Positions 6,954 through 43,530 of a DNA stretch of 64,000 nt are shown here, piece by piece. Under the pieces are notes generated by a model. The model saw nothing but the letters and a program-made list of their open reading frames with translations. It ran no database searches and was not told where the DNA came from. Origin of the DNA: Monodelphis domestica (lineage: Eukaryota > Chordata > Mammalia > Didelphimorphia > Didelphidae); contig NC_077232.1 in assembly GCF_027887165.1 (NCBI RefSeq), positions 18,678,755-18,742,754 of the forward strand, in the 5' to 3' direction. Position 1 is the first letter of the stretch; each line of letters opens with the position of its first letter. The position numbers and the translations under genes were made by a program.

Positions 6954-7907
6954 ATGACATTTATGGAGAACACATCTGAAGTGAATGTCTTCATCTTTAC
7001 AGGATTAACAGATGACCCAGAACTTTATATTCCTCTTTTCATAATGGTCACCCTAATCTATCTCATCACCCTGGTAGGGAACCTGGGGATAGTAGCTCTG
7101 ATCTCCTGGGACTCCTGCCTCCATACTCCTATGTACTTTTTCCTCAGGAATCTATCTCTGGTAGATTTTGGTCTTTCCTCAACCATTATTCCCAAGGTGA
7201 TGACTGGGCTCCTCACAGGGGACATGGTCATCTCTTATAATGGATGTGCTACTCAGTTGTTCTTTTTTGGGGGCTTTGCTGCCATTGAAAGTTACATGTT
7301 AGCCTTCATGGCCTATGATCGTCATGCCGCTGTGTGTAGGCCCCTACATTATACCACGATTATGACATCAAAAATAGGTGCATATATGGCTAGTGGGGGT
7401 TACATCTGGGGATTTCTCTCCTCCTCCATCTTCATAGGAAGTATTTTTAGCCTTTCCTTCTGCAGGTCAAATGTAGTCCATCACTTTTTCTGTGATATTC
7501 CCCCTCTCTTGGTTCTCTCTTGCTCTGAAATTCACATCACTGAATCAATCATCTTCATCATAGGTTCATTAAATGTATCCCTCCCATTTCTTATCATCTT
7601 TTTCTCTTACTTGTTCATCTTCATCACTGTCCTGAAGATTCATTCTGCTAATGGGCGCCAGAAAGCTTTCTCCACCTGTGCTTCCCATCTCACAGCAGTG
7701 TTCATATTTTATGGGACAGTCATCTTTATGTACTTCCGACCCAGCTCAAGCCATTCAATGGACTCAGACAAAATGGTGTCATTGTTTTATACCACAGTTA
7801 TCCCGATGTTGAATCCAATCATCTATAGTTTGAGAAACAAAGAAGTTAAGAATGCTTTCAGAAAAGCTGTGAGGGGACAACGCCTTCAATTTGATCAGCC
7901 TTTTTAA
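6954..7907 (+). CDS. OR5B-like: Olfactory receptor, class II, OR5B-like (unit A)
   Basis: Intact single-exon odorant receptor of 317 residues: a seven-helix GPCR of the olfactory neuron membrane, expected to signal through G-olf. Visible motifs: N-glycosylation site NTS at residues 6-8, GN at 42-43 (TM1), LHTPMYFFL at 56-64, [10 protein letters not shown] at 119-128 (the DRY motif reads DRH), Cys98 and Cys180 for the conserved disulfide, [10 protein letters not shown] at 237-246 (TM6), PMLNPIIYS at 284-292 (TM7). The N-terminus and the LTDDPELYIPLFI stretch match my memory of human OR5B members. Two in-frame ATGs lie 9 bases apart (6954, 6963); the second gives MENTSEV, which matches the usual OR5B start, so it may be the real one. 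A splice acceptor ends at 6933, so the 5' UTR probably has an upstream exon. It differs from the unit C receptor at 48 positions by my count. No frame defects seen. Ligand unknown. Confidence 0.96.
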   Translation: MTFMENTSEVNVFIFTGLTDDPELYIPLFIMVTLIYLITLVGNLGIVALISWDSCLHTPMYFFLRNLSLVDFGLSSTIIPKVMTGLLTGDMVISYNGCATQLFFFGGFAAIESYMLAFMAYDRHAAVCRPLHYTTIMTSKIGAYMASGGYIWGFLSSSIFIGSIFSLSFCRSNVVHHFFCDIPPLLVLSCSEIHITESIIFIIGSLNVSLPFLIIFFSYLFIFITVLKIHSANGRQKAFSTCASHLTAVFIFYGTVIFMYFRPSSSHSMDSDKMVSLFYTTVIPMLNPIIYSLRNKEVKNAFRKAVRGQRLQFDQPF

Positions 7908-9980: not shown

Positions 9981-10679
9981 TTATAAATTATTTACTTGTA
10001 GTTGGAATGATACAATTAAAAAAGTTAAAAAAAGATAGTTGCTCACCACTAGACTTCCAGAGGATGTTATTAATTTCTGTGTTTTCCCTATTGCCTTCGG
10101 TTATGGAAATCCCCCCTCTATGAATCAAAAGAAGCAAACTCTATCCTTTATCATTGTGCAATCAACACAACCTTAGTTTACTTTCCATCACATTACTTGG
10201 GTTATCTTATTAAACCAACTCTTTAAAAGAGCTGCTTTGATTATCCAATGCATCTTTGCTACTGAGTAGCCTTAGATCCCTTTTGTTGGTCATTGTTGGA
10301 CATTCTTTCCAATTGATTATCTTCTGATATTTGTACCTCATTTTCTCTTTTTCGCAGATTTTTATTGTGACAGTAAGACACCAAGAAGAGAGAAAGAGAG
10401 AAATGTTTTTTGCAGGTCTTTTCCCAGGAGTAAAGGTGTTCTATCAGAGCCTAGAAGTCATGGTCAGACATGAGGGTCTATTGTAGGTCTTTGATGTTTT
10501 TTTTCCCCAATTGAACTTCACACTTTCTTTGGACTCAAGACAGCTGGCACTAGGTCACTCTATAGAAGACATTGTTCATCTGCAAAAGTTCAATGAGTAT
10601 TATTGGGCTTCAAGAAAAGTATCAGTCAATTGTAGGATTTGGAAACATAAATGATAATGCCATACATGGCCATATTGAA

Positions 10680-11225
10680 GAGATTTTTGTCCTTACTGAG
10701 AGAGGTGATCCTATTTATATTCTCTGATCATCTTAGAGTACATCTGAAAATTTTATTCAGTCCAGGATGTGACATCTTGGGAAGAAGAATAAGACTTGGA
10801 AAAGCCACCGAGAAAATCTACTGTAGACTATTCCTCATGAGGATCAATAAGGGCATATATTCATCTAGAAGAGGGAAAATGTTGATATGGGTGGGTAAAG
10901 TATTGGATTCTATGTCCCATGGAAGAGGGAATACAGACATATTGTGTCTAGAATTTTTTAGAATTTTGTTTAGAATTTAGAATTTGTTTAGAATTGTTTA
11001 GAATTGTGGCTAGAATTTTGAAGCAAATTTGATTTCTTCCAAGGAAACATTTTCTTTTAAAATGGAGCAATTCCAAACTGTTTTTGTCCCCTGAAGAATT
11101 TGTCTTCACTGTATCCTTCAAGTGGGATATCCACTTGCTGAATGTGTTGTAGAAAATATCCCTTTTCAGGAATACATAAGATTTGATGACTTCTGAGACC
11201 ACTCTGATTCTAAGAATCTGTGACT
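10680..11225 (+). mobile_element. Probable CR1/L3-family LINE 3' fragment
   Basis: Worn words in the order expected of a CR1/L3 3' region: GAGGTGATCCTATTTATATT, CATGAGGATCAATAAGGGC, CCATGGAAGAGGGAATACAG, then GAATGTGTTGTAGAAAATAT, TTTGATGACTTCTGAGACCA and a GATTCTAAGAATCTGTGACT end. The open frame 10651-10980 is a by-product. A local TTTAGAATT tandem run (about 10955-11020) lies inside. Confidence 0.5.
10950..11020. repeat. Short TTTAGAATT tandem run
   Basis: Six or so imperfect copies of TTTAGAATT(TG) with variable spacing, probably replication slippage. Confidence 0.8.
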
Positions 11226-11765
11226 TACTCCTCTATTCAACTCAAGCTTTTTCCACAGACCTCTGGTACGTGACCTGATATACACATAATACCACTGCAT
11301 CCAGATCCCTGGAACCCTATTGGGGCAAATCAAACTTGTACCTTTTGTTATTATCTATCTATAACCTCATACGCCATTAAGACTTTGGATTATAAAATAT
11401 GAAAAGTTAACACACTCTACCATTCCCTCAACAAGTTTAAAATCAAATAGGAAATGATAAGGATGTTCAGGTTTATTTTTAAAATATCAATATCCTTTTA
11501 TATTAAAACTGTGAAAACAATTTATGTATTAGTATTCATTGTTTATAATTTTAATGAGGGCCAGGATCTATGATTTTTAGTCTTTGATTTACTAGCCCTT
11601 AACATATTATCTTCATAGAAGATGAATGAAGAAAAACAAATTTATTAAATAATTATTTTTTATCATGCACTATGGTTAGCAGCAAAAAAAGAAATATAAA
11701 ACCATGATACTTCCTAATTTTAAGGAATTTATTATTTTATAAGTAGTTTGTTATTATTTTATAAG

Positions 11766-12050
11766 CAGTTTGGTCATATAGAGGTTGAAAATCTGGAACT
11801 GAAGTCAAGAAGTCCTGAATTTGAATTCTGCCATAGTGATTAACTAGTTCTGTGATTTTGGCCAAGTCACTTAACTTCTCCTATCCTCAATATCTTCATC
11901 TATATATACGAGCGCAAGGTTTCACCACCAATGGAGCTAAATGACTTTTACCACATCACAAAGTTTATTCATGACTGATCATTGACTTGAATCTGGGTCT
12001 CCTTTCTCTCAGCCCAGTACTTTAACTATTATAGCACAAGTCTGCCAAGA
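11766..12050. repeat. MIR-type relics
   Basis: 11766-11900 reads as a forward MIR/CORE-SINE (AAGTCCTGAATTTGAATTCT, GGCCAAGTCACTTAACTTCT). 11930-12050 looks like an antisense MIR arm (CTTGAATCTGGGTCTCCTTT, CAGCCCAGTACTTTAACTAT). Confidence 0.55.
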
Positions 12051-12429
12051 AGATTGTGTACAAATAAACTCTCATTATTTTTGTTTTCCATTCCTGACTT
12101 TTTTTTTTCTAAAACAGAGTTCAGTTCTCTAATAAGAGGGGGTAAAGAAGATAAAATTCCATGCTCATGGTTGCCATATATCACCTAACAATCATGCCAA
12201 GTCCTGATATACTTTTATTTTGCTTATTTTGTAGGCTTTGACACTCAATACTGTTTAGCAGCAGGCCAGGATGAAAATGGTGTCATTTAAATTTACAAAA
12301 AAAAAATCTCTTTCCTGTTTCAGCTGTTTTATATTAGATTGTTTTGTTACTTGAAGGATTACTTTGAAACATTTTGTCATGTTTACCCCATAAAATGTCC
12401 TTTTTAAGAGTTATAGAATTCATTTGTGG

Positions 12430-12668
12430 GGTATTTAAGTGGAGCTTTGATAGAGCAGTGAGGGTGGACTCATAACAGCTGATCGTTATGAGTTCAAATC
12501 TGGATTCAGACACATTCTAGTTGTGTGAAGTTGGGCAAGTCACTTAATCACTTTGCTTCAGTTCCTCTTCATTAAAATTAACTGGGGAAGGAAATGGCAA
12601 GCCTTTCCAATATCCTTGCCAAAAGAACTCCAAATGTTATCACATAAGTTTGGACATGACTAAAACAA
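12430..12668 (+). repeat. MAR1-type tRNA SINE (unit A only)
   Basis: TTTGATAGAGCAGTGAGGGT, AAGTTGGGCAAGTCACTTAA, GGGGAAGGAAATGGCAAGCC, and GACATGACTAAAACAAATGG near the end. Lies in the 3.4-kb stretch absent from units B and C. Confidence 0.8.
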
Positions 12669-12722
12669 ATGGATAACGTTAACCAATGCACAGGCCATTT
12701 TTTGGAAAAAAAAAAAACAAAA

Positions 12723-12885
12723 ACCTTTTACCGTCTGTTAGAATAAGAAGATTGGCAAGAGCTAGGCAACTAGGATTAATGACTTGTTCAAAGTCACTAA
12801 ATTAGGTTGTGTTTATGGCCATATTTGAACCCAGGACTCCCTATCTCCAGGCCTAGTTTCTTATCCACTAAGGTAACAAGTTGCT
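12723..12885 (-). repeat. SINE1/WSINE1-type CORE-SINE, antisense
   Basis: Antisense order of the marsupial SINE: CTTTTACCGTCTGTTAGAAT, GGCAAGAGCTAGGCAACTAG, CATATTTGAACCCAGGACTC, CAGGCCTAGTTTCTTATCCA. Older and more worn than the copy at 31299. Confidence 0.75.
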
Positions 12886-13299
12886 CACATTAGAAGCTCC
12901 TTTTGAAAAGTATTCCCAGAGTATGACCTTAGGTTCTGCCGTCAATATCATGGAGCATAACTACTCTGGAGGAGATCACTATTATCAACCATCAAAAGAA
13001 ATTTCTGACTAGCTTTCATTATTAAGGCAGGACGTTAGCCTAGCTGATGCAATAATGCCACTGAAGGAAGGGAGAGAAGGCAGCAGAGAGCAGATGTATC
13101 AAATCACCATAATCACCATCTTCAACACCACCAGAATCTTAGATCTCTCATGGAGGTTAGAATCTCTCGTGGATACAGTTCATAACGTAGAGTCTAGTAT
13201 GTGGCCACTATCTAATGTCCATAATTGCAAATAAAAACTCATGTGGAGAAAAGAACTAGCAACTACTATTACTAAATAAAAATAACAACAAAAACTCAT

Positions 13300-13375
13300 A
13301 TTTATATAGTACCTACTATGTGCCAGGCACAGTGCTAAATGCTTTATAAATAGCATCTCATTTGATTCCCACATC
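13300..13375. repeat. MIR/ancient repeat arm
   Basis: TACCTACTATGTGCCAGGCA, then AGTGCTAAATGCTTTATAAA, then TCTCATTTGATTCCC: the arm common to old mammalian MIR-class repeats. Confidence 0.6.
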
Positions 13376-13985
13376 CCTGGGACATTAATGCTATCTGGGA
13401 GATCAAGAAATTATTCCCCCTACCACCAATTCAGATCACTAAACAATTGCCACTGAAAGAATCTTAGGATCCTGGAATAGTGGAAAACCTGAAGCTATCT
13501 ACCATGCTTTCAGCATATTCCCTGAAGCCATAATCCAGGGGGAGTAGCTCTTCTGGAGATGTAATCTGGCAGCCGTTTATCCATATTCTAGACTCTCTAC
13601 TTTTTCTTTAACCAGTTCTACTGAAGGTCACCAAAGATACTGACCACTTGCAAATGGTTGATCATTAGATATTAATATTTTTTACCATTGAAATAAAAAA
13701 ATGCATATTAATATAAATGGAAAGAGCATTAAGGCATATGCATTACCATGTGCTCCAGCAAAGCAGCCTAGTCCTTTATATAAGACTTCCATGAGAAAAG
13801 TCCAGCATGTGTCTTTTCTGAGGCCATAACAATATAGAATGTTTTCTTTTAAATATTTATCACCAGGAGAGTAGGGATCTAATGAATGCTTTTCACCATT
13901 CACTTATTCATTATTACTTTTTATCCTTGTGAGCATAACACAGTAGGTAGTCACAGGATTCGATTCAATAAACACAATAGGATTT
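13376..13985. other. Unit spacer ending at L1 insertion site
   Basis: Colinear with 26359-26990 (B) and 45557-46215 (C): shared GGCATATGCATTACCATGTG, GCAGCCTAGTCCTTTATATA and ATTCAATAAACACAATAGG. No gene; the short antisense frames with TFLMEVLYKGLGCF are not kept open across units. Confidence 0.55.
13967..13985 (+). repeat. Target-site duplication, left copy
   Basis: AATAAACACAATAGGATTT, identical to 16060-16078. Single-copy equivalents in B (near 26972) and C (near 46198) mark the empty site. Confidence 0.92.
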
Positions 13986-16059
13986 TATGGTGGTCTTCTT
14001 AAAGAATCCTAGAAAATCAACCAAAAACTAGTCAAAATAATCAACAACTTTAGCAAAGTTACAGGATGCAAAATAAACCCACATAAATCATCAGCATTTG
14101 TATATATTACCAACATATCTCAGCAGCAAGAATTAGAAAGAGAAATTCCATTTCAAATCACCCTAAACAATATAAAATACTTAGGAAACTATCTGCCGAG
14201 ACAAACACAGGAACTATATGAACACAACTACAAAACACTCTCCACACAATTAAAATTAGATCTAAACAATTGGAAAAACATCAATTGCTCATGGGTAGGA
14301 TGAGCTAACTTAAAAAAATGACAATCCTACCCAAATAAATTTACTTATTTAGTGCCATACCCATTGGACTACCAAAAAAAAAAACATTTTTACTTAATTA
14401 GAAAAAAACATAACAAAGTTCATTTGGAAGAAAAAAAGATCAAGGATATGCAGGGAAATCATGAAAAAAATTCAAAGGAAGGAGGCCTTGCTGACCCAGA
14501 TCTCAAACTATACTATATAGCAGTGGTCATCAAAACAATTTGGTACTGGCTAAGAGAAAGAAAGGAGAATCAGTGGAATAGACTTGGGGTAAGTGACCTC
14601 AGCAAGACAGTCTATGATAAACTGAAAGATCCCAGCTTTTGGGACCAAAGTCCACTAAATTTGATTAAAAACTCCTGGGAAAATTGGAAGACAATATGGG
14701 AGACATTAGGTTTGCATCAACACCTCACACCCTACACCAAGATAAACTTAGAATGGGTGAATGACTTGAATATAAAGAAGGAAACTATAAGTAAATTAGG
14801 TGAATACAGCATAGTATACATGTCAGATTTTTGGGAAAGGAAAGACTTTAAAACCAAACAAAAGCTAGAAAAAAACACAAAATGTAAAATAAATACATTT
14901 GATTGTATCAAATTAAAAAGGTTTTGTACAAACAAAACCAATGCAACCAAAATTAGAAGTGAAGTAACAAATTGGGAAACAATATTCATAACAAAAACCT
15001 CTGATAACTGTCTAATAACTCAAATTTATAAAGAGGTAAATCAATCATACAAAAATTGAATCCATTCTCCAATGGATAAAAGGGCAAGGGACATGAATAG
15101 GCAATTTTAAATTAAGAAATCAAAACTATTAATAAGTACATGAAAGCGTTCTATATCTCTTATAATCAGAGAGATACAAATCAAAACAACTCTTATGTAC
15201 CACCTCACACCTAGCAGATTAGCTAATATGACAGCAATGGGAAGTAATGAATGCTGGAGGGGATGTGACAATGTCGAGACATGAATGCATTACTGGTAGA
15301 GTTGTGAATTGATTCAATTATTCTGGAGGGCAATTTGTAACTATGCCCAAAGGGCACCAAAAGACTGTCCTTTGATCCAGAGATAGCACTGCTGGGTTTG
15401 TACCCCCAAAGAGATAAGGAAAAACATTTGTACACGCGTATTCATAGCTATACTCTTTGTGGTGGCAAAAAATTGGAAAACGAGGGGATGCCCTCCAATT
15501 CAGGAATGGCTGATCAAATTGTGGTATATGTTGATGATGGAATAGTATTGTGCTCAAAGGAATAATAAACTGGAAGAATTCCATAGGAACTGGAACAACC
15601 TCCAGGAACTGATGCAGAGCAAAAGGAGAAGAACCTGGAGAACATTGTACACAGAGACTCATACACTGTGGTACAATTGAAGGTAATGGACTTCTCCATT
15701 AGTGGCAATGCAGTAATCCTGAACAACTTGGAGGGATCTACTAGAAAAACGACTATCCACATTCATAGGAAAATCTGTGGTAGTAGAAACATAGAAGAAA
15801 AACAACTGCTTTATTACATGGGTCGAGGGGATATGGTTGGGAATATAGACTATAAATGAACATCCTAATGCAAACACCAACAACATGGAAATAAGTTTTG
15901 ATCTAGGACACATAGAAATTGAACATCAGCTACAGAAAAGTTGGTGAGAGGGGAGTGAGGGAAATAATATGATTCTTGTGACCAAGGAATAATGTTCTAA
16001 ATTGACTAAATAAATTAATTAAAAAATAAAGTGTCACATAAATTGTAAAAAGATAAACA
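13986..16059 (+). mobile_element. L1, 5'-truncated, with perfect TSD (unit A only)
   Basis: Starts inside ORF2 just after the RT FADD region (TGGTCTTCTTAAAGAATCC), keeps the ORF2 C-terminal part, part of it open at 14352-15059 (235 codons with VVIKTIWYWLRERKENQWNR and PYTKINLEWVNDLN, typical of L1 ORF2), then the 3' UTR and an A-rich tail. Flanked by a perfect 19-bp target-site duplication. Units B and C are empty at this site. The TSD argues for a fairly recent, post-duplication insertion. Some stops near the ORF2 end; not mobile because truncated. Confidence 0.96.
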
Positions 16060-16078
16060 AATAAACACAATAGGATTT
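16060..16078 (+). repeat. Target-site duplication, right copy
   Basis: AATAAACACAATAGGATTT, after which the unit continues as ATTTAAGGAAAATCTC, matching GTACAGGAAAATCTC in unit B. Confidence 0.92.
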
Positions 16079-16189
16079 ATTTAAGGAAAATCTCATTTAT
16101 TATTGCAAGGAGAGAATCCAAAAGTTTTGAAGAATGTACATTTTGTAGACATCACTGTTGTCCCATTTATAATATATTTGAGTTAGAGA

Positions 16190-16569
16190 AGAGTTTCCAT
16201 TTACTTTTTAAAATTTATTTTTAATTTTTCACAAAATTTTAGAAAACAAATAATGAAAATTCCCATAATTTCTAATTCCTTAACACCATAAAGAGAGTTG
16301 CTATACACTTTTGATTTATTTTCCTCATTCCCTGATACTCTTGTGAAACAAACTCAGAAATACCATAGCTGCTTTTAAGGATGTACACAGTTTGAGAGCC
16401 TTTGGGTATAATTTTAAATTGCTCTCTAAATGATCAGATAACTTCACAGTTCCACCAAGAGGATATTAATGTACTCATTTTTTCACAATCTCACAAACAT
16501 TTACAATTTTGCTCTTTTTTCACTTAGGCCAATTTGGGTGTGAGATATTACCTCAGAATACTGTTAGTC
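16190..16569 (-). mobile_element. Second reversed L1, 3' end (unit A)
   Basis: Antisense L1 3' sequence (AATTTATTTTTAATTTTTCA; CAGTTCCACCAAGAGGATAT; CAATTTGGGTGTGAGATATT). At GTCTATAT (about 16562-16569) it is joined directly to antisense ORF1, whereas unit C continues into ORF2. The unit B paralogue is 27110-27487. Confidence 0.65.
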
Positions 16570-17827
16570 TATATTTTGCTGGGTAGTTAATTCTTGGTTG
16601 GAGGCCTAGTTCCCTTGCTTTCCAGAATATCATATTTCATGCCTTCTGGTCCTTCAGAGTAGATGCAGCTAGGTCCTGTGTTATCCTAACTGAGGTTCCA
16701 TTATATCTGAATGGTCTCTTCTTACTAGTTTGTAGTATTTTTTCCTTGCTCTGATAATTCATGTATTTGGATATAATATCCCTGGGTGTTGTCAATTGGG
16801 GATTAAATGCAGGTAGTGATCTGTGGATTCTTTCAATCTTCGCTGTTCCCTCTTATTCAAGGATGTTGGGGCAGTTTTTTTTTTTTTTTGCAAAATTTCC
16901 TGTGGAATGATGCCCAGGGTTTTTATTTTGCATGATTTTCCAGTAGTCCAATAATTCTTAAATTGTCTCTTCTGGATCTATTTTCCAGGTGTGTAGTTTT
17001 ACCAGTTAGGTGCTTCATATTTTCTTCATTTTTTTATTCATTTGATTTTGTTTTATACACTTACTGCCTTGTGAGGTCATTTGCTCCTAGTTGATGGATT
17101 CTAATTTTTAAAGACTAAATTTCATCCCTGGCTTTTTGGTCATCCTTCTTCTGGTCTGTTTTTCTCTGTAGGTCATCTTTCACTTTCTTTGCCTCACGTT
17201 CAAGCTAGTCAATTCTGGCTTTCAAGGCACTATTTTCTTCTTTTAGTTTATGTGCCTCTGTTTCCAGAAGAGCTTTTAGTTCTTTTCCAATTGTCTTCAT
17301 CCTCTCTTAATCATTTTTTGAATTCTGTTTTGAGTTCTTCCAAAACCTGAGTCCAATTTGCTGTCATTTCTGTGTTTTTGCTTGGTCCTCCATGGTCCTC
17401 CTCTGTTCCATTTGATCTTTGTTCATTACTTGGATAGAAGCTGTTTATTGTAATTTCTTTTTTTTTATGTTGTTATTCATACCTTTTTCCTTCCTTCCTT
17501 CATGTCATTGGCTGTAATATTGCTCCTCTTATTATTTGCTAGATCTGTGGGTTTGGGCTGTTCTGTACTGAAGGGGCTTCTTCTCTGCTCTGCTGATTGA
17601 CAAGATTAGGTTGATGGAGTATTAATGAGCTCTGAGATTGCCAGCTGGCAACAGAAGTTGAGATGTAGGTGTAGATGTGTGGAGGTTGAAGTGAGCTATG
17701 CTTCCTGCTTTCTTATCAAAATATTCTGTTAAGGTTGCAGACTTTGTCCTGGTATCTAAGTCAGCAGGATTCGTACTACAGCTCCCAGTGTAGTTGATGG
17801 GAGAAGGGTTGGAGATTGATATGTTTT
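16570..17827 (-). mobile_element. Second reversed L1, ORF1 and 5' UTR (unit A)
   Basis: Reverse complement encodes the L1 ORF1 C-terminal domain (words equivalent to TQDLAASTLKDQKA and LQPRINYPAKY, compare forward L1 ORF1 at 51470-51640), then the ORF1 coiled-coil part and the 5' UTR up to about 17827. Frame is broken. Same structure in unit B at 27488-31498, there split by a provirus and a SINE. Confidence 0.75.
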
Positions 17828-22039: not shown

Positions 22040-22422
22040 CACACTGGTAAGTCAGTTGACTTCTTCCATTTCTTTATCTTGATAATATGTATAATGATAT
22101 TTGTGGCACAAATCTCATAGGCTTGTTTTGGGGGCCCCAATAAAATCATGTCTATAAGTTGTTTTCCAACAAACAAATGCTCTAGAAACATCTTATGAGC
22201 CTTTTCAAGTTCAGCATCCTTGAGTAACTGAAATAGCCCTTTGAGAAATGATTTACAGCACAGTCCTAAGGAAGACTTAATTGAATAATGTTGGTGATGA
22301 ATATATTAGTTGCACAGCACTGCATTACATTTGGGAATGAGGGGGTTGATAACCAAGTTGAAGTGAAACATAATCCTTGCCATCAATGCTAATAACTCAC
22401 ATTTATATAGGACCTAAATATT
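22040..22422. other. Start of unit B, up to deletion junction
   Basis: Paralogue of 1-380, 36158-36535 and 58600-58980. The MIR relic is cut at about 22423, where the L1 3' end begins. Confidence 0.7.
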
Positions 22423-23180
22423 CTGATGAATGTCTAATTTCTCAAAATTATATTGAATTAAGTAAAATTTATGAGAATATAAGGCATTCCCCAATTGACA
22501 AATGGTGATTATGCAGTTTTCAGAGGAAGAAATCAAAGTTATCAATAAGCATATAAAAATGTTCTAAATCACACTTGATTAGGAAATGCAAATTGAAACA
22601 ACTGAGGTGCCACCACACACCTATCAGTAATGGCTGAAGAAATTGTATTATATGTTAGTGGGGTAATACTATTGTGTTTTTAAAAATGATGATCATGATA
22701 ATTTCATAAAAGCAAACAACAAAGACTTATATGAACTTATGCAGATCAAAATCAGCAGAAAAAGAAAAATACTGTATGCAGTAACTGCAGCTTTGTGAGA
22801 TGATCAAGTGTGAAAGACTTTCTGTACTCACAATATAAAGATCTGGGCCAGTTCTGAGGGAGATGTGATAAAAATGCTATCCACCTCCCAAAAAAAACTG
22901 CTGAGTTTCGATCGATATCAAAGCATACCATTCTTCACATTCGTTTATTATTTTATTTGGGGGTTTTGGTTTGATATGAGTTTTCTCATATAACAGTGAC
23001 ATATAGGAGTCTGTTTTCCATGATAGCACATTCATAAACCAGATTAAATTGCTTATCATCTCTGAGAGAGGGGAGGGGAAGAAGATGATTTGAATCTTTT
23101 AATTTCAAAAAATGTCCATTAAAATTATTATCAAATTTGGAATTTGGTAAATAAGATATCTTTGAATAAATAGGTAAAGA
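22423..23180 (+). mobile_element. Old L1 3' end upstream of OR (unit B)
   Basis: ORF2 tail and 3' UTR of the same old L1: CAAATTGACAAATGG-like block, GAAATGCAAATTGAAACAAC, then the G-rich 3' UTR (GAGAGAGGGGAGGGGAAG). Paralogous to 41617-42380 in unit C at about 97-98% by eye. Directly joined to the MIR relic at 22423 by deletion of everything between. Confidence 0.75.
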
Positions 23181-23347
23181 GTAATACATAAAGTATTCTC
23201 TATAAGAAACTTTATTATTTAATTTTGGGAACTCGAGTAATTGCTCTCAGTCACTTAATTCTTTATTTCTAACTTTCACATAAAATATTTCTATGACTGT
23301 TTTAAGTCTTGGAAACAATTCATCATGAAAAATTGATTTTTCTGACG

Positions 23348-23370
23348 CTTATTCCTTTTTTGTTTCAGGA
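23348..23370 (+). other. Splice acceptor before OR exon (unit B)
   Basis: Tract TTCCTTTTTTGTTTCAG ends at 23368, with the first ATG at 23389. Sequence and spacing are as in units A and C. Confidence 0.7.
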
Positions 23371-23388
23371 GAATGACATCACTCTCAA

Positions 23389-24345
23389 ATGACATTTATG
23401 GGGAACACATCTGAAGTGAATGCATTCATCTTTGTGGGATTAACAGATGTCCCAATGCTTCAGGTTCCTCTCTTTATAATGGTAACCCTGATCTATCTCA
23501 TCACCCTGGTAGGGAACCTGGGAATAGTAGCTGTGATTTCACATGATTCCTGCCTCCATACTCCTATGTACTTTTTCCTCAGAAACCTATCTCTGGTGGA
23601 TTTTGGTCTTTCCTCAACTGTTATTCCCAAGGTGATGACTGGACTCCTCACGGGAGACAAAGTCATTTCCTATAATGGATGTGCAACCCAATTGTTTTTC
23701 TTTTTGGCCTTTGCTAATATCGAAAGTTTACTTTTAGCCTTCATGGCCTATGATCGCCATGCAGCTGTGTGTAGACCCCTACATTATACCACTACCATGA
23801 CTTCAAAAGTCTGTGTATATTTGGCCAGTGGGGCTCATATCTGGGGTTTTCTGACCTCCTCCATCTTCACAGGAAATATTTTTAGTCTTTCCTTCTGTAG
23901 GTCCTATGTAGTCCATCACTTTTTCTGTGATATTCCCCCTCTCTTAATTCTCTCTTGCACTGAAATTCACACCACTGAGTCAATAATCTTCACTTTTGGT
24001 TCATTCAACGCATCCTTCTCATTTCTTGTAATCTTTTTCTCTTACTTATTAATCTTCATCACCATCCTGAAGATCCGTTCTAATGATGGGCGCCAGAAAG
24101 CTTTCTCCACCTGTGCTTCCCATCTCACAGCAGTGTTCATATTTTATGGGACATCCACCTTCATGTACTTCCAACCCAGCTCAAGCCATTCAATGGACTC
24201 TGACAAAATGGTGTCAGTATTCTACACCATGGTTATCCCTATGTTGAATCCTCTCATCTATAGTCTGAGAAACAAAGAAGTTAAGAATGCTTTCAGAAAA
24301 GCTGTGAGGGGACAAAGCCTTCAATTTGATCATCCTTTTAATTAG
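23389..24345 (+). CDS. OR5B-like: Olfactory receptor, class II, OR5B-like (unit B)
   Basis: Intact single-exon odorant receptor of 318 residues with every class II hallmark: glycosylation site NTS at 6-8, LHTPMYFFL in TM1-TM2, [10 protein letters not shown] at the end of TM3, the paired cysteines 98 and 180, [10 protein letters not shown] in TM6, PMLNPLIYS in TM7 and [11 protein letters not shown] after it. Start choice: ATG at 23389 or the in-frame ATG at 23398; the latter gives MGNTSEV and matches the family start. A pyrimidine tract and CAG acceptor end at 23368. It differs from the unit C receptor at 44 of 318 residues, although the DNA just outside the exon on both sides is far more alike. 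Differences include residues 21-24 (VPML against DPWL), 52 (H against W), 106 (L against V) and 262 (Q against F). AATAAA lies at 24348-24353, right after the stop. Appears functional. Confidence 0.96.
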   Translation: MTFMGNTSEVNAFIFVGLTDVPMLQVPLFIMVTLIYLITLVGNLGIVAVISHDSCLHTPMYFFLRNLSLVDFGLSSTVIPKVMTGLLTGDKVISYNGCATQLFFFLAFANIESLLLAFMAYDRHAAVCRPLHYTTTMTSKVCVYLASGAHIWGFLTSSIFTGNIFSLSFCRSYVVHHFFCDIPPLLILSCTEIHTTESIIFTFGSFNASFSFLVIFFSYLLIFITILKIRSNDGRQKAFSTCASHLTAVFIFYGTSTFMYFQPSSSHSMDSDKMVSVFYTMVIPMLNPLIYSLRNKEVKNAFRKAVRGQSLQFDHPFN

Positions 24346-24347
24346 AG

Positions 24348-24353
24348 AATAAA
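24348..24353 (+). promoter_or_regulatory. Candidate polyadenylation signal, unit B OR
   Basis: AATAAA begins 3 bases after the TAG stop at 24343-24345. The equivalent motif is present in unit C. Confidence 0.35.
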
Positions 24354-24608
24354 TCCATTTGTACCTTCCTCCCTCTGTGATCCAGCAGTCAAAAAGACTA
24401 TTTTTTTATTTATACAGAAGGGTAATCCATATTTCCCCCAGGAGTAACATTATGTAGCAGCAGAAGTAAAAGACTTGGAAATAAAGAGGCAAAGCCATGA
24501 TGTTAGCATAGTAAGACTAGGAATTAAGGGATCCTGTAATATAAGTTCTGTGTCAGATATTTCTTGTTGTATAACCTTAGCTCCATACTGTGTAGCCTAA
24601 GGAAACTA

Positions 24609-24837
24609 GGCAGGACAGGGGATAGAGCAGTGGATCTGGAGTGAGCAACATCTGACTTTACAGACACTTATTAGTTTTGTGACTCAGAACAAGTCACTTA
24701 ATCCTGTTTGCCTATGTTTCTTCATCTGAAAAATGAGTTAGAGAAGAAAATACCAACCATTTCAGTATCTTAGCCAAGGAAACTTCCCATGGGGTTGTGA
24801 AGTGTTGAACAGAACTGAAAAATGACTGAAGAACAAC
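24609..24837 (+). repeat. MAR1-type tRNA SINE (unit B)
   Basis: GGCAGGACAGGGGATAGAGC start, CAAGTCACTTAATCCTGTTT middle, CTGAAAAATGACTGAAGAAC end. Nearly identical to the unit C copy. Confidence 0.88.
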
Positions 24838-24969
24838 CTTATCCATGTCACTAAAGTCTGTCTCGATTTCCTTTCGTATAAAAGGCTTTAATAGTTTGAC
24901 ATAATATTGGTTTGTGGATAGAAGGGGATCTGCGTATGCACACCCACACATAGACATACCTAGACACCC

Positions 24970-24970
<1 letters not shown>

Positions 24971-25028
<58 letters not shown>
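24971..25028. repeat. (CA)n(TA)n microsatellite (unit B)
   Basis: About 20 CA repeats followed by a short TA run. Open frames reading through it are repeat translations only. Confidence 0.97.
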
Positions 25029-25667
25029 ATCGTAATATAGAAATCCTAGCTATTATCCCTTTAAAGAAGAAAGAGCAGCTACTTAACTTTGAAAGGTGTA
25101 GTACTTGCAGAGAAAAGCCACTAAGTTGCTTGGAAAGGGCAACATTGGTGGTAACAGCTTTGCTTATTCAACACCCCCTCAACCAGAGGTCTGCTGCTAA
25201 ATACTTAAGACCCAGCTCTTCAGGAAAATAATTGTACACAACATAGTCTGCTGATTTCTATACTCACTCAAAATCGAATCATCACTTTGTGAGATGGTTA
25301 AAGCTAGATCCAGCACACACCTACAGTAAGGCTACATTTGGGAAGGAATATAAATTATTAGGTGGTCCTTTAAGGGCTGGAAAGTCAAGGAGAGAGGCCT
25401 TTCACTGTAATGTCAGTGTAGCATCCCAAAGCCAATCTCAATAGAAATTCAATCTAACAAATGGGTTCTTAACTGTTTTACATGTTTCTGTGTTTGAATA
25501 GAGATTCTTGTGAATTTCTCTTTATAATATTTTTTTATTTTCCTGTGGGATCAAATAAAGGCTTTCCAATATGTGGTAACTTAAATTATTTTCTAGGAGC
25601 TGGAGATCCATATTGCCTACATTGGGAGAAACAGAAGAACATGCTATACTATTAGCATGTGAACTGA

Positions 25668-25925
25668 TTTTTAAGAGATATTTTATTTGTTTTCCCAATT
25701 ACAGATAATAACAATTTTCAACATTAAATTTCTGAGATTATGAGGTGGTAACCAATTTGATCTGTATTATGCAGGTATCATGCAAAATGTACGGCCATAT
25801 TGGTCCTTGTTATAAAAAGAACACTGTTATAAAACCAAAACTCCAAAATAGAAACATAAACTCATGTGGTAAATTGATTTTTTTAGAACAACTCTATTCA
25901 GAGAGATGAAATTGAAATTTTATAT
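25668..25925 (-). mobile_element. Old L1 3' UTR fragment, antisense (unit B)
   Basis: Paralogue of 9245-9560 (CCCAATTACAGATAATAACA; CATGCAAAATGTACGGCCAT), lacking the C-rich segment. Confidence 0.6.
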
Positions 25926-26358
25926 CAACTTTTTATTTTATTTATTAATTATTGACTGAAAATTATATCTATGCACTAGAATCAATATTTGTGGATCAAC
26001 TCTATTCTTATGGGCTTTGGTGGTAAAATTTGCAAGAGTTTAACCTCCCTAATTTCTTTGGGCTAAAGTAGAACCACCAAGCCCCAAATCTATGAAGGTC
26101 TCCTCACCACATTGAGATATGAGTCAACTTCCTTATTGGACGTTGGCTCACCTCCAGATATTTCAGGGGATGTGAGTCGACAAAGTTATAAGATATTTGC
26201 TAACCTTTCACACAGCAACACCTCTACTGGGTCTCTAACCTTAAGAGATCAAATATAGAGGAGAAAGGAATTACTTATGCCAAAATATTGCCAGCAACCT
26301 TAGCAAGGGAGAGCATGAGAACAGTGGTTGAAAAATATCAGAAAATTATTATTATGAA

Positions 26359-27109
26359 GTGGGACATCAATGCTAGCCGGGAGATCGAGAAACTATTTCT
26401 CTTACCAACATAAATCACTAAATAGTTGCCAATGAATGACAGGTAAACCTAAGGGTCTTGGGAATAATAGAAAGGCTATGACTATCTACCCTTGTTTCAG
26501 TTCATTCCCTGAAGCCATAATCCAGGGGGAGCAGCAGTTTTGGAGATGTAATCTGGCAACTGTTTCTCCATATTCTATACTCTCTACTTTCTCTGTAATC
26601 AGTTCTAGGACTAGGGAGAAAAATATTCTTGACACCAAAGATATTGACCACTTGCAAATGGTTGATCATTAGATATTGATGGGTTTTTTTGCCACTGAAA
26701 AAAAAATGCACATTAATAGAAATGAAAGGGCATTAAGGCATATGTATTACCATGTGCTCCAGCAAAGCAGTCTAGTCCTTTATATAACATTTGCATAAGA
26801 AAAGTCATTTAGTGTCTTTTCTGAGCCCCTGAGAATATGGGATGTTTTCTTTTAAATATGTATCACCAGAATAGCAGGGACCTAATGAATGTTTTTTCAC
26901 CAATCACTTATTCATTATTACTTTTTATCCTTGTGAGTACAACACCGTAGGTAGTCACATAATTCTCTTCAATAAATACAATAGGCTTCATTGTACAGGA
27001 AAATCTCACTCATTACTGCCAGGAGAGAATCTGAAAGTTTTAAAGAATGTACATATTTGCAGACATCACTATTGTCCCATTTGTGATACATTTGAGTTAG
27101 AACAGAGTT
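26359..27109. other. Unit B spacer with empty L1 site
   Basis: Matches 13376-13985 plus 16079-16190 of unit A without the L1: CAATAAATACAATAGGCTTC near 26971 continues directly. No gene. Confidence 0.6.
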
Positions 27110-27594
27110 TCCGTTCACTTTTTTAAATTTATTTTTAATTTTTTCCAATTTTTATAAAACAATTTATAAAGATTCCCTCAATTTCCAATTCATTACCACA
27201 AGAAAGAGAGATACTATAAACATATCATTTATTTTCCTCATTCCCTGGTACTCTTGTGAAACAGACCCAGAATTACCATGGCTGGTTCTAAGGATATACA
27301 CAGTTTGAGTCTTTGTGTATAATTTCATACTGCTCTCTAAATGGTTAGATAACTTTACAGTTCCACCAACAGGATATTAATATGCTCATTTTTTTTCACA
27401 ATCTCATGAACATTTACAATTTTGCTCTTTTTTATTTTAGCCAATTTGGGTGTATGATACTACCTCAGAATAATTTTAGTCTATATTTTGCTGGGTAGTT
27501 GATTCTTGGTTGTAGACGCAGTACTCTTGCTTTCCAGAATACCATATTCCATGCCTTCTGGTCCTTCAGTGTGGATGCAGCTAGGTTCTATGTG
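27110..27594 (-). mobile_element. Second reversed L1, left part (unit B)
   Basis: Antisense L1 3' end to about 27487, then antisense ORF1 (AATACCATATTCCATGCCTT; CTTCAGTGTGGATGCAGCTA) up to the provirus insertion. Confidence 0.7.
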
Positions 27595-29906: not shown

Positions 29907-30002
<96 letters not shown>

Positions 30003-31985: not shown

Positions 31986-34900
31986 ATAATCTATTAACAA
32001 TGCAAGATGTTTATCACAGTCCTCACAGAGGATATTCCACTAAGGATCAATACACAATACAGAGGGGGCATTCTCGTAATGAGACTCATCTGTACAATTA
32101 TTTATCTAAAAGAATGGATAAAATTTATAGACAATTTATTACAGTTACTCAAATTTAATGGAAAAACAATATATTTATATGAAGCAGAGATAGAATGTAA
32201 GAAACCAAACTCAACAATGTGGAGATCCCATCAGAGTCATCAAATAACATATTCTGCTTGAATTTCTTTTTCTACTTTGGTTCCTAGAATATTCTCAAAA
32301 CTGTCACTCTCACTAGAATTGCTCATAGAGTTATGGTCTTTTTTTGAGAATGGTTTTTAGATGTTTTAGGAATAGTATAATCTAGGTATAGACATCAATC
32401 TTATGAACCTCAGAAGAAGGATTTAAACTTCAATATAGGAATACTTTCTAACATAATATGGTCAATAGATTTGGTGAGGACTATCCCATAAAATGCTTTA
32501 CTGTCTTTGGAGTTAAGTATTTTTTTATTCCACAGAGTTAAATATGAACAACACCTCAGATAACCAAAAATAATTACACTTATTACTAGAAGAATGATGA
32601 GAAGCCAAAAAGAAATGCAAGAATTCTTATTTCTTAATGGAAATTAAGAATAGTGTGTATTTTAGATTTATCTCACCTTGATTAGTCTTTAGAATTATAG
32701 CAACCAGGAGTGTATACACCCCCACTTGAGGATTAACTGTAGGGTAGGATGGCCTATGACTGGCATGTGCTAGCTAGTGACGAATCAGAAACAACTCACT
32801 AACCCCTGGGCTGTCCTAAACCAAGATTAAGCCACTGTTGGTACATGTGAGACACAGGAAGTGATGAGAAAACTGCCTATATATTTCATATCACTTCCTG
32901 TGAGAAGCTCTTGGAGATGTTGGGAACTTTTGGTGGCATTTTGTGTGCTTGTGGCTTTGGCAGACTTGGCATTGGAGTTTATTGGGAAGAGTCTAGAGTG
33001 GTTTAGGTGAGGCACTTCTCCTGAAGGACCTTGGTGAGTGAGAAGGCTGACTCCCTTTTATCTTGACCTTCTGAAGACTATCCTCTGAGAAGACCCCTTG
33101 ACTTGGAGGAGGCCTCATGGCTGGCAGTCAAACTAGATTTAATCTTCTGAGAAAGCCCCTTGGCTGAGGACTCTGAACTCCTCTTGGATTACACCAAGCC
33201 AGAGCAGATCTTCTACTCTTTCCCTCTTCTCCTGATTCTTAATTTCTTCCTTCTATTGTAATTAAACCACCATAAAGTCCCAAACTAACTTGCATAATTC
33301 ATTGGGATTGAATTTTAATCCTTGGTGAACACTAATATAATTTATTCACTCAACAACCCTAAATTTTATCCTAACAATAGGAAACTTGCTTATAATTAAG
33401 ACTGTGGGCTGTGGTCCTCACAAAAAATCCAGGAAACATAGTAGGGCATTCAGAAACTGATGTGTGAGTGATTAGATTCATGAGCTCTGAGATAACTTGA
33501 TTAAAACCTTCATTAAGTAAGAGGTTTCAATAATCTATACTATAGATACTGTGCTACAGGTTTTTATTGATGTATTTACCAGACTCTTCATCTGTGATAC
33601 ATGAATCCTAGTTAATAGTATTAAAGCAAATGGTTACATTAGTAATTTCCTACATGATCTCCTCAAGAGTAAAATTGTTTTTGGTCAGGTTCTGTGTCTT
33701 GATATTATCCTCCAAAGGGCTCATGATAGTGCTACTATCAGATCGTATTTTGATAGTTTTCATGAATACAGTGGACTTAGTAAATAACATAAACTCCTTT
33801 ACTCCAGTGATCTCAATCTATACCCTGTGCCCAGAGGGTCCCTTAGAACTTGGTAACCTCAGTGAGTTTATTGTAGTAAATAATGAAGGGAAATCACCAG
33901 TATTAGTGATTCTATTTTAGACCAGCTAGGCAAACAAACCCTTTGTTCTGTTGGTAATGGATATAACTTTATCCCAATGAGACTAGTGATTTAATGTAAT
34001 ATTTCTTTTTTATCAAAATAAGTTCCCTCACCTCTACATTTGTATGGGACACCAAAACTTGAATTTTCAGGGGACACATAATAGCTGCAGCATTAGTGAA
34101 ACAACTCATCTTTTGTTGAGTGGTAGCAATATATCTTTGGAGGAAGATATTGGTCTTTCTGATATGATTTTTAAAAAAGCCTACTTCATCTCACCAACAT
34201 TCCGTGGAGGAAGGACAGTATTAAGTATCTCCAGAGACAAAAAAAAAGGAGGAGAGCATTTATAGGTTTCATTAAGCAAAGATTAGCTGGTGTTATTATA
34301 TTTGAACTTCCAAAAAAGAAAAGGACATATTAACAGAAAACAGACCATTCATGAAACCTGTTGTCTAAATAAGCTTGGATCAGGCAATCTTTGGAACAGG
34401 GAAAACACTCCTTTAATCCAGATTATAAGTAGGGCTATCATAAGATTGAACAGAATTCCTTTCCATAATATAATAGGTCAGAGACATTTACAAAGATTGG
34501 CAGAGTACCATTGGTCTTCAGTAACATTGTAGGGCACCATTATGAGTGAAGAAGAGGTGTAGGTTTTCCTTAAGATCAATGAATACAGGACTCTTTTTGA
34601 TCAATCTCAATTGCAGTTGGAATGATCAGGAGAACTTGGAAAGTGTTTTCCCAAGTAGGTTACAATCTACTGGGATGTTGAAAGTTCTTAATATAAACTT
34701 AAGCTCCTCTATGGAAATCATGCCATGATAAACCCATAGGTTCAGTATGAACCATTGCTTAGGATAGAGTATTTCCCAAGGTAACAGTGAGCCATTATGG
34801 AATCCTTCTTGGGTTCAAATATTCAACAAATTCTGAATCTGTCATTCTTTGCATCTTGTTTTCAAGAGCAACTGTAGGAAATTTATCAAAGATTCTACAC

Positions 34901-35030
34901 AAATATTGCCAAATGATTTCTCCAGGGTTCCCCTCCATTACCAATAAACTTGAACTTTGAAGACAAGTGTCCTTTAAGGTCAAAGGATGCAGGAGTACAC
35001 ATAGATTTGGGGAAATAATTAACTGGGATA
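31986..35030 (-). mobile_element. Reversed class I ERV fossil (unit B)
   Basis: Paralogue of 18606-20940. Integrase C-terminal remnant on the minus strand at about 34560-34720; env-like remnant below it, split by a solo LTR at 32654-33376. Heavily broken; older than the array. Confidence 0.5.
32654..33376 (+). mobile_element. Solo LTR, same family as the unit B provirus
   Basis: 723 bp, TGTGTATT...CCTAACA, with a 4-bp duplication ATAG on both sides (32650-32653, 33377-33380). Unit A shows the uninterrupted site AAGAATAGGAAACC near 19285. Shares several blocks with the LTR at 29525-30137. No internal region, so formed by LTR-LTR recombination. Confidence 0.9.
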
Positions 35031-36157
35031 ATTTATAATTTACAAATAACTATCCACATAATGTTCCTGGGAGTTAATCTCCCAGGAACATTATCATTAG
35101 TTTTAAAATAATAATATATGTATATTAGTATTTTAAAACTAACGAAATCAGGCTTCATCCAGGATAAATTACTTGCTTAAAGTTTCACAGTGACTTCTAA
35201 CTCCATGTCAAAAGTTCTGCCACCGAATTTAGTCGTCATTTCCCTTGGGGACCATGATGAAATCTTTGCACTACCTAGGCTTTCTTTGATGGTCAGTATC
35301 ACATTTTGTGTTAACCACCACCTTTTGATTATATGCAGGTCTGAGATTATTTTCTTCATTTAAAAAATAAATTAAATAAGACTTGGAGATATTCAATGAC
35401 TTAGTCAATGTCACACACCTAGGAGGAAGAGAATCAAGCTTTAGTCCGTGGACTTGGGCAAGACCCTTTCTACCTCACTTTGCTAACAACATGCTAAGAA
35501 TAACAAAATATCCATGAGGAAATCGTCTCTGTGCATATTCTCCTTTTTCCCTCAATGGTTACAGAAGAATTTGATGGCTTGTTTTGTTCATGAGTTGGCA
35601 TCAGAGTTGCTAGGTTTCTCCAAGGGACCACTAGTTCCTCAGAGATGCAGGTCTCCCACATCTGGATAAAGGCCCTGCCTCAGTCCTAACTATAGCTCTT
35701 GACATTGAAACATTCCTCTCCAGTTTTCCATACTGTGTTAACAGCTTGTGGGTCCAATTTAGTCATTTATTCATTCATCTAGCTTCTTTTGTGTTTCATG
35801 AGGCTGAGTTGTATGGAAGATAGGAGTGGGCTGTAATGTCATACATGCCACAGCAATGGCAAGGAGTGACCACTGTGCCAGTGGAAACATTTGACATTTT
35901 TTCCCCTGTAACCAGGGAGGTGTTTCTATAATGGAATCACATACTGACTCAGCTTAGAATTTCAAGGTCAAACCTTGAATATAAAATTCTTGGCCAACCC
36001 TCCTGGCCACCTTTCTCCATATCAAGTCAGGTAGGTTCTAGGATACCCAGTCTAAGACTGAAGTCCTTATGTAGACAGCAACATGGCATAGTGGAAACAT
36101 TTCTAGACCAGGAGGCAGGAAGAATTGGAAAAATCTCGCTATCCAATCCACCATTTC
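35031..36157. other. Unit B/C boundary spacer
   Basis: Near-identical to the A/B boundary over its right half. Contains the hairpin at 35058-35094. No gene. Confidence 0.6.
35058..35094. repeat. Perfect 16-bp hairpin, 5-nt loop
   Basis: ATAATGTTCCTGGGAG, loop TTAAT, then the exact reverse complement. Units A (near 20965) and D (near 57485) have only the left arm, so the right arm is a unit B novelty. Confidence 0.92.
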
Positions 36158-36512
36158 CACACTGGTAAGTCAGTTGACTTCTTCCATTTCTTTATCTTGA
36201 TAATATGTATAATGATATTTGTGGCACAAATCTCATAGGCTTTTTTGGGGGGCTCCAATAAAATCATGTCTATAACTTGTTTTCCAACAAACAGATGCTC
36301 TAGAAACATCTTATGAGCCTTTTCAAGTTCAGCATCCTTGAGTAACTGAAATAGCCCTTTGAGAAATGGTTTACAGCACAGTCCTAAGGAAGACTTAATT
36401 AAATAATGTTGGTGATGAATATATTGGTTGCACAGCACTGTATTATATTTGTGAATGAGGGGTTTGATAACCAAGTTTAAGTGAAACATAATCCTTTCCA
36501 TTAATGCTAATA

Positions 36513-36718
36513 ACTCACATTTATATAGGACTTAAATATTTGCAAAGGCTTTCCATTACTCTTCTCATTTGAATCTCCTGAGAACTATGTGACATGAATA
36601 TTATTAATATTATTATTATCCCCTTTTTATAGATAAATAGCTTTAGGATATTTGACTTTAGTCCCTTTCCCATTGCTATATTATTAATAAGAATCTGAGA
36701 TGGCATTTAAATCCAGGA
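36513..36718. repeat. MIR-type relic (unit C)
   Basis: Paralogue of the relic at 345-560, with the same block order; older than the array. Confidence 0.55.
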
Positions 36719-37294
36719 AGCTCCTTCTATTTCTGAATATTACTATTTCTGGAATGTTTTCCTTACATCAAACCAAAATTTTTTTCTTAAGATCTACCTT
36801 TTGGGGGGATGCTGGGTGCCTCAGTGGATTAAGAGTCATGCCCAGAGATGGGAGTAAGGGTTTAAAAAAAGATCTACCTTTTGCCCATGGTCCTTACCTT
36901 TGAGTACAAATAGGACAAGTCATATCCTTTCGCCACATAACAATCCATGAGATACTTGAATATAACTTTAATCTAAACTCCTGCCCCAACACCCATATTT
37001 TATCTTTTCTAGTCTTAAAATCCATCAGTTTCTTCCACCAATTCTAAAAGTGAGATTTCAATGTATTTCTCCATTTTGAAATTCTTTAGTCAATTAATTT
37101 CCTTCTCTAAATGGAGAACATATAACTGAACACATTGCAGTGTGCCAAATACCAAAGACCATATCTGTGAGCCTTGTTATTTTTCTCTGTTCAATATAAG
37201 ATCAAATTTCTTTTCTTTTTAGCCATGTAGGTCAAAAAGTTGTGGTGGGGATCAAATATTCTAATGTATTTAAAGTGGTCTGTGAAATTTAAAT
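36719..37294. other. Unit C spacer
   Basis: Colinear with 575-1085 of unit A and 59165-59660 of unit D (AATGTTTTCCTTACATCAAA block). Carries the small SINE fragment at 36804-36868. No gene. Confidence 0.6.
36804..36868 (+). repeat. Internally deleted SINE1-type element with TSD (unit C only)
   Basis: GATGCTGGGTGCCTCAGTGG, TTAAGAGTCATGCCCAGAGA, then AAGGGTTTAAA; only about 65 bp. Flanked by exact 15-bp copies of AAGATCTACCTTTTG (36789-36803, 36869-36883). Units A and D have the single-copy site. Confidence 0.88.
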
Positions 37295-37550
37295 GGGCAG
37301 CCTTGGTACCATGGATAAAGCTGTGTGAATAGATTTGGGAAGTCCTAAGTTGAAATTCATATGGTGTGACTCTGGGAAAGTCACTTAATCTTTATCTGAT
37401 CTAGTTTCCTCAACTTTAAAATGTGTTTGTTTAATAATAGCCCTTATATCTCAGGGTCATCATGAGAATCAAGTAATATCATGTTATTAAAGTGTCTGGT
37501 ATGGTACTTGTTCCATAATTGATGCTATAGAAATGTTCCTTCACTTCTCT
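37295..37550 (+). repeat. MIR/THER1 SINE (unit C)
   Basis: Same element and position as 1085-1330: GTGACTCTGGGAAAGTCACT followed by the CTAGTTTCCTCAACTTTAAA block and a GTCTGGTATGGTACTTG tail. Pre-duplication. Confidence 0.75.
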
Positions 37551-38800: not shown

Positions 38801-38814
38801 TTGGAAAAGAAAGT

Positions 38815-42380: not shown

Positions 42381-42532
42381 ATACATAAAGTATTCTCTAT
42401 AAGAAACTTTATTATTTAATTTGGGGGAACTCGAGTAATTGCTCTCAGTCACTTAATTCTTTATTTCTACCTTTCTATGACTGTTTTAAGTCTTGGAAAC
42501 AATTTATCATGAAAAATTGATTTTTCTGATGC

Positions 42533-42573: not shown

Positions 42574-43530
42574 ATGACATTTATGGAGAACACATCTGAA
42601 GTGAATGAGTTCATCCTTATAGGATTAACAGATGACCCATGGCTTCAAATTCCTCTTTTCATAATGGTCACCCTCATATATCTCATCACCCTGGTAGGGA
42701 ACTTGGGAATAGTAACTCTGATATCCTGGGATTCCTGCCTCCATACCCCAATGTACTTTTTCCTCAGGAACCTATCTCTGGTGGATTTTGGTCTTTCCTC
42801 AACTGTTATTCCCAAGGTAATGACTGGACTCCTCACGGGTGATAAGGTCATCTCCTATAATGGATGTGCTACCCAGTTGTTTTTCTTTGTGGCCTTTGCT
42901 AATATCGAAAGTTTACTTTTAGGCTTCATGGCCTATGATCGCCATGCAGCTGTGTGTAGACCCCTACATTATACCACTATCATGACTTCAAGAATGTGTA
43001 CATATATAGCCAGTGGGGCTCATATCTGGGCTTTTCTGACCTCCACCATCTTCATAGAAAACGTTTTTAGTCTTTCATTCTGCAGGTCCAATGTTATCCA
43101 TCACTATTTTTGTGATATTCCCCCTCTCTTAGTTCTCTCTTGCTCTGAAATTCACATCACTGAGTCAATGATCTTCATTTTTGGGTCATTAAATGCATCC
43201 TTCCCATTTCTTGTCATCTTTTTCTCTTACTTGTTCATCTTCATCACTGTCCTGAAGATTCGTTCTGCTGATGGGCGCCAGAAAGCTTTCTCCACCTGTG
43301 CTTCCCATCTCACAGCAGTGTTCCTATTTTATGGGACATCCATCTTTATGTACTTTTTTCCCAGCTCAAGCCATTCAATGGACTCAGACAAAATGGTGTC
43401 AGTATTCTACACCATGATTATCCCTATGTTGAATCCTCTCATCTATAGTCTGAGAAACAAAGAAGTTAAGAATGCTTTCAAAAAAGCTGTGAAGGGACAA
43501 CGCCTTCAATTAGACCATACTTTTAATTAG
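42574..43530 (+). CDS. OR5B-like: Olfactory receptor, class II, OR5B-like (unit C)
   Basis: Intact single-exon odorant receptor of 318 residues, the third member of the array. It carries the NTS glycosylation site near the N-terminus (residues 6-8), [19 protein letters not shown] (DRH instead of DRY, as in the other two), cysteines 98 and 180, [19 protein letters not shown] and [11 protein letters not shown]. Start at 42574 or the in-frame ATG at 42583 ([10 protein letters not shown]), which fits the OR5B family better. An acceptor ends at 42553. Substitutions relative to units A and B fall largely in and around TM3 (106, 107, 110, 114, 115), TM4 (139-157) and TM5-TM6, the regions lining the odorant pocket in class II ORs, so its ligand range probably differs. 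AATAAA is at 43533-43538. No frame defects. Confidence 0.96.

Follow-up and report, generated by a model that had tools for sequence, protein, structure and literature searches.

In the opsin genes, exon divergence is retained between homogenised introns, and several species as well as known functional residues back the role of selection there (PMC3924837). For V1R promoters, i.e., in tandem chemosensory genes, conversion has been proposed to homogenise non-coding blocks of over 500 bp; in that system the coding sequences mostly show less divergence than the block, with the promoter situated far upstream (PMC1955453). Mosaic receptors generated via gene conversion, including mosaic exons inside olfactory receptor (OR) clusters, are treated in a review (PMC1995454), which cites Sharon et al. 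1999. Microsatellite-linked exchange has been proposed for the sea urchin Sp185/333 immune gene cluster, in which diverse tandem copies share similar proximal flanks and have microsatellites close by (PMC3091723), and the copepod GOT1 paralogues show divergence islands amid conversion (PMC3728101). Among the titles and abstract openings listed from the open-licence literature on gene conversion and olfactory or odorant receptors, neither the locus described here nor a flank–exon pattern of this kind in ORs is reported.

The window analysed here, a stretch of 64,000 nucleotides from Monodelphis domestica (NC_077232.1, 18,678,755 to 18,742,754), carries three OR units (A, B and C), whose exons and alignment are as follows:

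6954..7907, + strand: OR exon (317 aa) in unit A, which serves as the outgroup; intact ORF, Pfam 7tm_4 at E=1.4e-56
23389..24345, + strand: OR exon of unit B, 318 aa; intact ORF, Pfam 7tm_4 at E=5.6e-54
42574..43530, + strand: OR exon of unit C, 318 aa, the partner of the B exon; intact ORF, 7tm_4 at E=1.8e-56
22416-27488: unit B, aligned against unit C (41608-46730) over 5.1 kb

The B/C locus is a clear case of an already known pattern; a divergence peak between homogenised neighbours is present, as it is in the opsins. As at the red/green opsin peak, an exon of tandem paralogues has diverged further than the adjacent non-coding DNA that conversion homogenised (PMC3924837). Unlike the opsins, however, B and C are one pair, their ligand is not known, and the exon seems to receive sequence from another gene. 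The likeness to the V1R genes lies in the homogenised non-coding DNA of tandem chemosensory genes for which conversion is proposed (PMC1955453), but at B/C the tracts lie directly against the coding exon and have diverged less than it has. With the OR mosaics covered in the review (PMC1995454), B and C share a mosaic receptor exon inside an OR cluster, yet here the flanks are homogenised within one pair and a third gene seems to take part in the exon mosaic.

The three ORFs are intact single coding exons of 317, 318 and 318 aa (A, B and C, respectively), i.e., within the range of about 310–320 codons, and Pfam 7tm_4 was found in 3/3 of them at E 5.6e-54 or better. A solved-structure search, used for family naming only, returned consensus OR5 as the best solved relative of B, and the most similar named proteins among the best 120 of 7986 matches were OR5B2/OR5B12-like. 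Judged by their sequence, A, B and C are mammalian class II olfactory receptors of family 5 (OR5B-like). TM3, which usually ends in DRY, ends in DRH in all three receptors (23753-23761 and its counterparts in A and C); among the 120 relatives (best 120 of 7986 matches), DRH is contained in 102 and DRY in 16.

B (22416-27488) and C (41608-46730) were globally aligned and the differences recounted per interval, which yielded the following unstranded features:

22600..22967: outer upstream flank of B, where divergence from C persists (56/551 sites differ over 22416-22967)
22968..23401: upstream near-identical tract, against C 42165-42586 (7/420 differ, 98.3% identical)
24346..24498: 3′ part of the divergent island beyond the stop codon (13/153 differ)
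24601..25490: downstream near-identical core, against C 43787-44686 (5/890 differ)
B 24972-25016 and C 44124-44210: (AC)n repeat about midway along the downstream core
25491..26257: downstream shoulder of intermediate divergence (35/760 differ)

The coding exon (23389-24345) differs at 89/957 sites (9.3%) and the proteins at 44/318 residues, in agreement with the roughly 9% of bases and 44 of 318 residues of the original prediction, whose central claim, i.e., that the exon is more diverged than its near flanks, likewise holds (89/957 vs. 7/420 for 22968-23401 and 6/891 downstream). The expected 98–99% identity downstream, with about six mismatches, was recovered over 24600-25490 (6/891 differ, 99.3% identical), and the outcome named in advance as telling against the claim, a flank identity equal to that of the exon, was not found (99.3% identity downstream vs. 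9.3% difference in the exon). Upstream, the same expectation for 22900-23360 proved too high: this interval is 96.4% identical (16/446 differ), with 9 of the 16 differences within 22900-22967, and only 22968-23401 taken alone reaches 98.3%. Nor does the divergent stretch fully equal the exon. The dense differences, at 23423-24498 (101/1076), cover 923/957 CDS bases, but they start at codon 12 and end 153 bp beyond the stop codon. At three-way sites of the outer upstream flank (22600-22972), B and C differ at 36/357, and on the downstream side divergence rises again farther out (29/270 in 26258-26527 and 188/952 in 26528-27488).

The (AC)n repeat differs in length between B and C, and A is without a clean repeat. 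That this repeat helped start conversion is speculation, and while repeats bound the similar flanks in the Sp185/333 system (PMC3091723), the (AC)n repeat instead lies near the middle of the B/C tract. GC-biased conversion was considered as well: the GC content of the downstream core is 39.4% in B and C vs. 34.7% in A, and that of the upstream tract 28.1-28.9% in B/C vs. 29.6% in A. Tandem repeats of such kind are prone to assembly error, so that near-identical flanks might partly represent a collapsed or misplaced copy. However, the downstream core carries 5 substitutions and differing (AC)n lengths and the upstream tract 7 substitutions and one 14-bp indel, and we regard such an artefact as very unlikely.

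The mosaic is significant by several measures. When the aligned B–C sites of 22416-26515 were shuffled, neither a 1000-site window with 10 differences nor an identical run of 340 sites was reproduced (0/2000 shuffles each). The longest run of B=C among A/B/C-variable sites spans 86 sites (24955-25287), vs. a maximum of 53 in 1000 shuffles. The top max-chi2 peak (33.8, at 23316-23321) exceeds the maximum of 1000 shuffles (23.2), and the second peak (16.8, at 25491) exceeds the 99th percentile (15.5), under which the values near the outer upstream edge (14.6, at 22794) and near the 3′ part of the exon (14.5, at 24201) remained. Two penalised segmentations both left the upstream tract joined to the exon; downstream, a broader low segment (24501-26257, 43/1750) came out under the heavier penalty, and only the lighter one yielded 24601-25490 as a low segment (5/890). 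B and C share near-identical tracts within more diverged homologous DNA, beyond chance, as is required of conversion.

Unit A served as a control for the flanks. In the tracts, A differs from B by 24.8% and from C by 24.5%, vs. 12.9% (A–B) and 11.6% (A–C) in the exon, as is usual, while the same comparison of B with C runs in the opposite direction (11/1237 in the tracts, 89/954 in the exon). At three-way sites, B and C differ at 6/387 in the upstream tract and 5/850 in the downstream core. One would expect the splice acceptor of the exon and the 3′ UTR to fall within the regions that the tracts occupy, and functional constraint might on that ground be supposed to keep the flanks alike. Yet since A stands about 25% away from both B and C in these very tracts, their likeness is not explained by constraint, unless this were specific to B and C, and we consider such an origin extremely improbable.

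The age of the exon was estimated from its synonymous sites. B–C exon dS is 0.198 (NG86), 0.165 (YN00) or 0.164 (ML), with a bootstrap range of 0.136-0.271, and omega is 0.37 (NG86) or 0.47 (YN00, ML), with a bootstrap range of 0.23-0.61; there are about 37 synonymous differences, and a dN/dS above 1 for B–C over the whole exon was not found (0.37-0.47). Four-fold exon sites (14/111 differing) are comparable to the outer upstream flank (36/357, p=0.48), but differ from the upstream tract (6/387; Fisher p=4.3e-6) and the downstream core (5/850; p=2.5e-10). The B–C exon is therefore not accelerated but roughly as old as the pair, and the tracts look young; the exon appears unusually diverged because the flanks are unusually alike. 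The earlier suggestion that conversion homogenised the flanks stands up well to these counts (6/387 and 5/850 in the tracts vs. 14/111 at four-fold sites, with A about 25% away), although gene conversion as the process, and its recency, are what we infer from the sequence pattern. A recent duplication followed by exon drift is ruled out by the exon dS together with the diverged outer flanks.

Diversifying selection, the other cause originally put forward, fared less well. That it alone separated the exons after a recent duplication could appeal to the 44 residue differences and their clustering at aa 136-211. Nevertheless, because synonymous sites carry the divergence (dS 0.165-0.20) and omega lies at 0.37-0.47, it is not the cause by itself; the outer flanks have diverged too, and we give this explanation next to no credence. 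The B–C residue differences do cluster at aa 136-211 (20/76 vs. 24/242 elsewhere, p=0.0009), a share equalled by 1/91 other Monodelphis pairs, which leaves room for a local contribution of diversifying selection. The differing positions include 3.33, 6.52 and 6.57 (numbered from motif anchors), which presumably are of the kind that lines OR pockets.

The same observations bear on a selection-protected divergence peak, in which conversion would act unit-wide while tracts homogenising the exon would be purged since they erase a distinct receptor. Such protection, which would add a cause to flank conversion rather than replace it, accords with the coverage of 923/957 CDS bases by the island, with the residue cluster and with the pocket-numbered positions. 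On the other hand, the island extends 153 bp beyond the stop codon, omega is below 1, the exon itself seems to take conversion from another OR, and, for this one locus, a randomly placed 1076-bp island covers the CDS equally well in 188/1443 placements (13%). Selection against conversion within the exon is possible on this single locus, though on balance we lean against it.

The relationships of the exon were examined among protein relatives, for which 7987 candidates were scored and the best 120 of 7986 matches kept; A is not among these 120. P0001 is the protein of B and P0005 that of C (the C protein is identical to P0005). Besides these, 14 proteins among the listed matches are named Monodelphis, 13/14 of which entered the distance counts and the column-shuffle scan (P0040 being left out) and 12 the trees (P0040 and P0007, the latter apparently chimeric and from UniRef only, being left out). 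All listed Gracilinanus proteins (8/8) were used, 11 proteins from other marsupials entered the 34-protein tree only, and P0010 and Gracilinanus agilis P0004 were compared at the protein level. P0007 shows 0 mismatches to P0006 across 111 variable columns (aa 4-174) and 0 mismatches to P0009 across 85 variable columns (aa 166-317); seen only in UniRef, it would be an OR chimera arisen via either conversion or assembly.

Gracilinanus agilis P0004, the closest other-species protein among the best 120 of 7986 matches, is 32 residues from B and 36 from C, and B and C (44 residues apart) are no closer mutually than they are to it. P0004 is the partner of B in the 34- and 23-protein trees (99/93 and 95/93, respectively), and Monodelphis P0010 is that of C (99/91 and 97/91). 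We take the whole-exon tree as suggestive, since AU tests on the whole exon reject neither B and C as sisters (p=0.059) nor B, C and P0004 together (p=0.178). The signal divides along the exon. In the tree of residues 1-68, C, whose own branch has zero length, groups with P0010 (98/85), and P0004 joins B (96/95), whereas the tree of residues 69-318 unites B, C and P0004 (77/80). AU tests did not reject B, C and P0004 together for residues 1-68 (p=0.193), or C with P0010 for residues 69-318 (p=0.508). B–C dS is 0.366 in codons 1-68 vs. 0.157 in codons 69-318.

The C–P0010 pair has the second lowest N-terminal share of differences of 276 pairs (binomial p=0.012, uncorrected). It reached 19/500 in a column shuffle, a scan that was not relied on because it ranks between-species pairs high and mostly reflects uneven conservation. 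Moreover, in two intervals picked after inspecting the data, sites with A=C outnumber those with B=C (14 vs. 6 in 23402-23592, p=0.005 against the remainder of the exon; 12 vs. 8 in 23991-24099, p=0.007). P0010 is also identical to B at aa 222-254, where C differs at 3 residues; it thus resembles C at the N-terminus and B at aa 222-254.

Together with the split of the trees, the dS contrast points, with moderate support, to a candidate import:

42574..42777, + strand: codons 1-68 of C, probably imported from an OR resembling P0010, with approximate edges

Conversion from such a receptor probably supplied roughly these 68 codons of C, the edges and direction being read from the pattern. The suggestion that the exon was converted by another OR is in this way moderately borne out for that segment, but not for the whole exon. 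A wider version would have one broad recent conversion or duplication over 22.97-26.26 kb, including the exon, followed by replacement of the whole B or C exon from other ORs. The tracts do flank the exon on both sides without significant difference in divergence (6/387 vs. 5/850, p=0.11), and part of the C exon looks imported. Still, B–C dS remains 0.157 in codons 69-318, the tree of that part unites B and C with P0004 (albeit at just 77/80), and no suitable donor of codons 69-318 is present among the Monodelphis proteins in the matches listed, which leaves so broad an event rather unlikely.

Further features lie around the units. From about 26.56 kb onward, A is a nearer match to B than C is (dAB 0.123 and dBC 0.263 in 26560-26759, with 35 sites of A=B vs. 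10 of B=C), so that the relationship of the three units switches:

B 26560-27488, A 13378-13984 and 16060-16576, C 45755-46730: stretch of switched relationship

B is continuous across 22416-22422, where the counterparts in C (33372-36540 and 41608-46730) lie about 5 kb apart (36540-41608); this difference may be either a deletion in B or an insertion in C. The downstream flank of A is interrupted, relative to B and C, by two extra stretches (9987-13378 and 13984-16060), the second of which carries a 235-aa ORF (14352-15059) reminiscent of the end of LINE-1 ORF2; a Pfam search with this ORF gave no match up to E 0.1. A perfect (TC)43 microsatellite is located at 29912-29997, between units B and C.

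The best explanation, to which we assign a probability of roughly 0.75, is that recent patchwork ectopic gene conversion acted in the flanks while most of the exon keeps an older paralogue divergence. B and C would be fairly old tandem paralogues within the opossum OR5B cluster, whose older divergence of about 10–16% at neutral sites would persist in the outer upstream flank and at the synonymous sites of codons 69-318. More recent ectopic conversion would have copied one of the two units over the other in two places: an upstream patch of about 430 bp that reaches just inside the 5′ end of the coding exon, and a downstream core of some 890 bp. The shoulder of this core, at 4.6% divergence, points to older or overlapping events. 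Between the converted tracts, the exon would have escaped homogenisation. In a separate event, roughly codons 1-68 of C would have come by conversion from another OR of the P0010 type, an import that would raise the divergence of codons 1-68 to the level seen against A.

At the B/C locus, an age read from flank identity would be far too young for the OR duplication, and a tree of the whole exon can also mislead, since adjacent stretches within one 4-kb unit differ in history. Should other OR pairs show the same exon island, this would offer a direct test of selection keeping receptor diversity against homogenisation. Finally, it may be, although we consider this doubtful, that conversion maintains alike non-coding shells of neighbouring opossum ORs while selection purges exon homogenisation and the exon trades short segments with ORs of the cluster. 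If this were true, the exon would be an exchangeable cassette in a homogenised shell, and neighbouring genes would be equal competitors for receptor choice.
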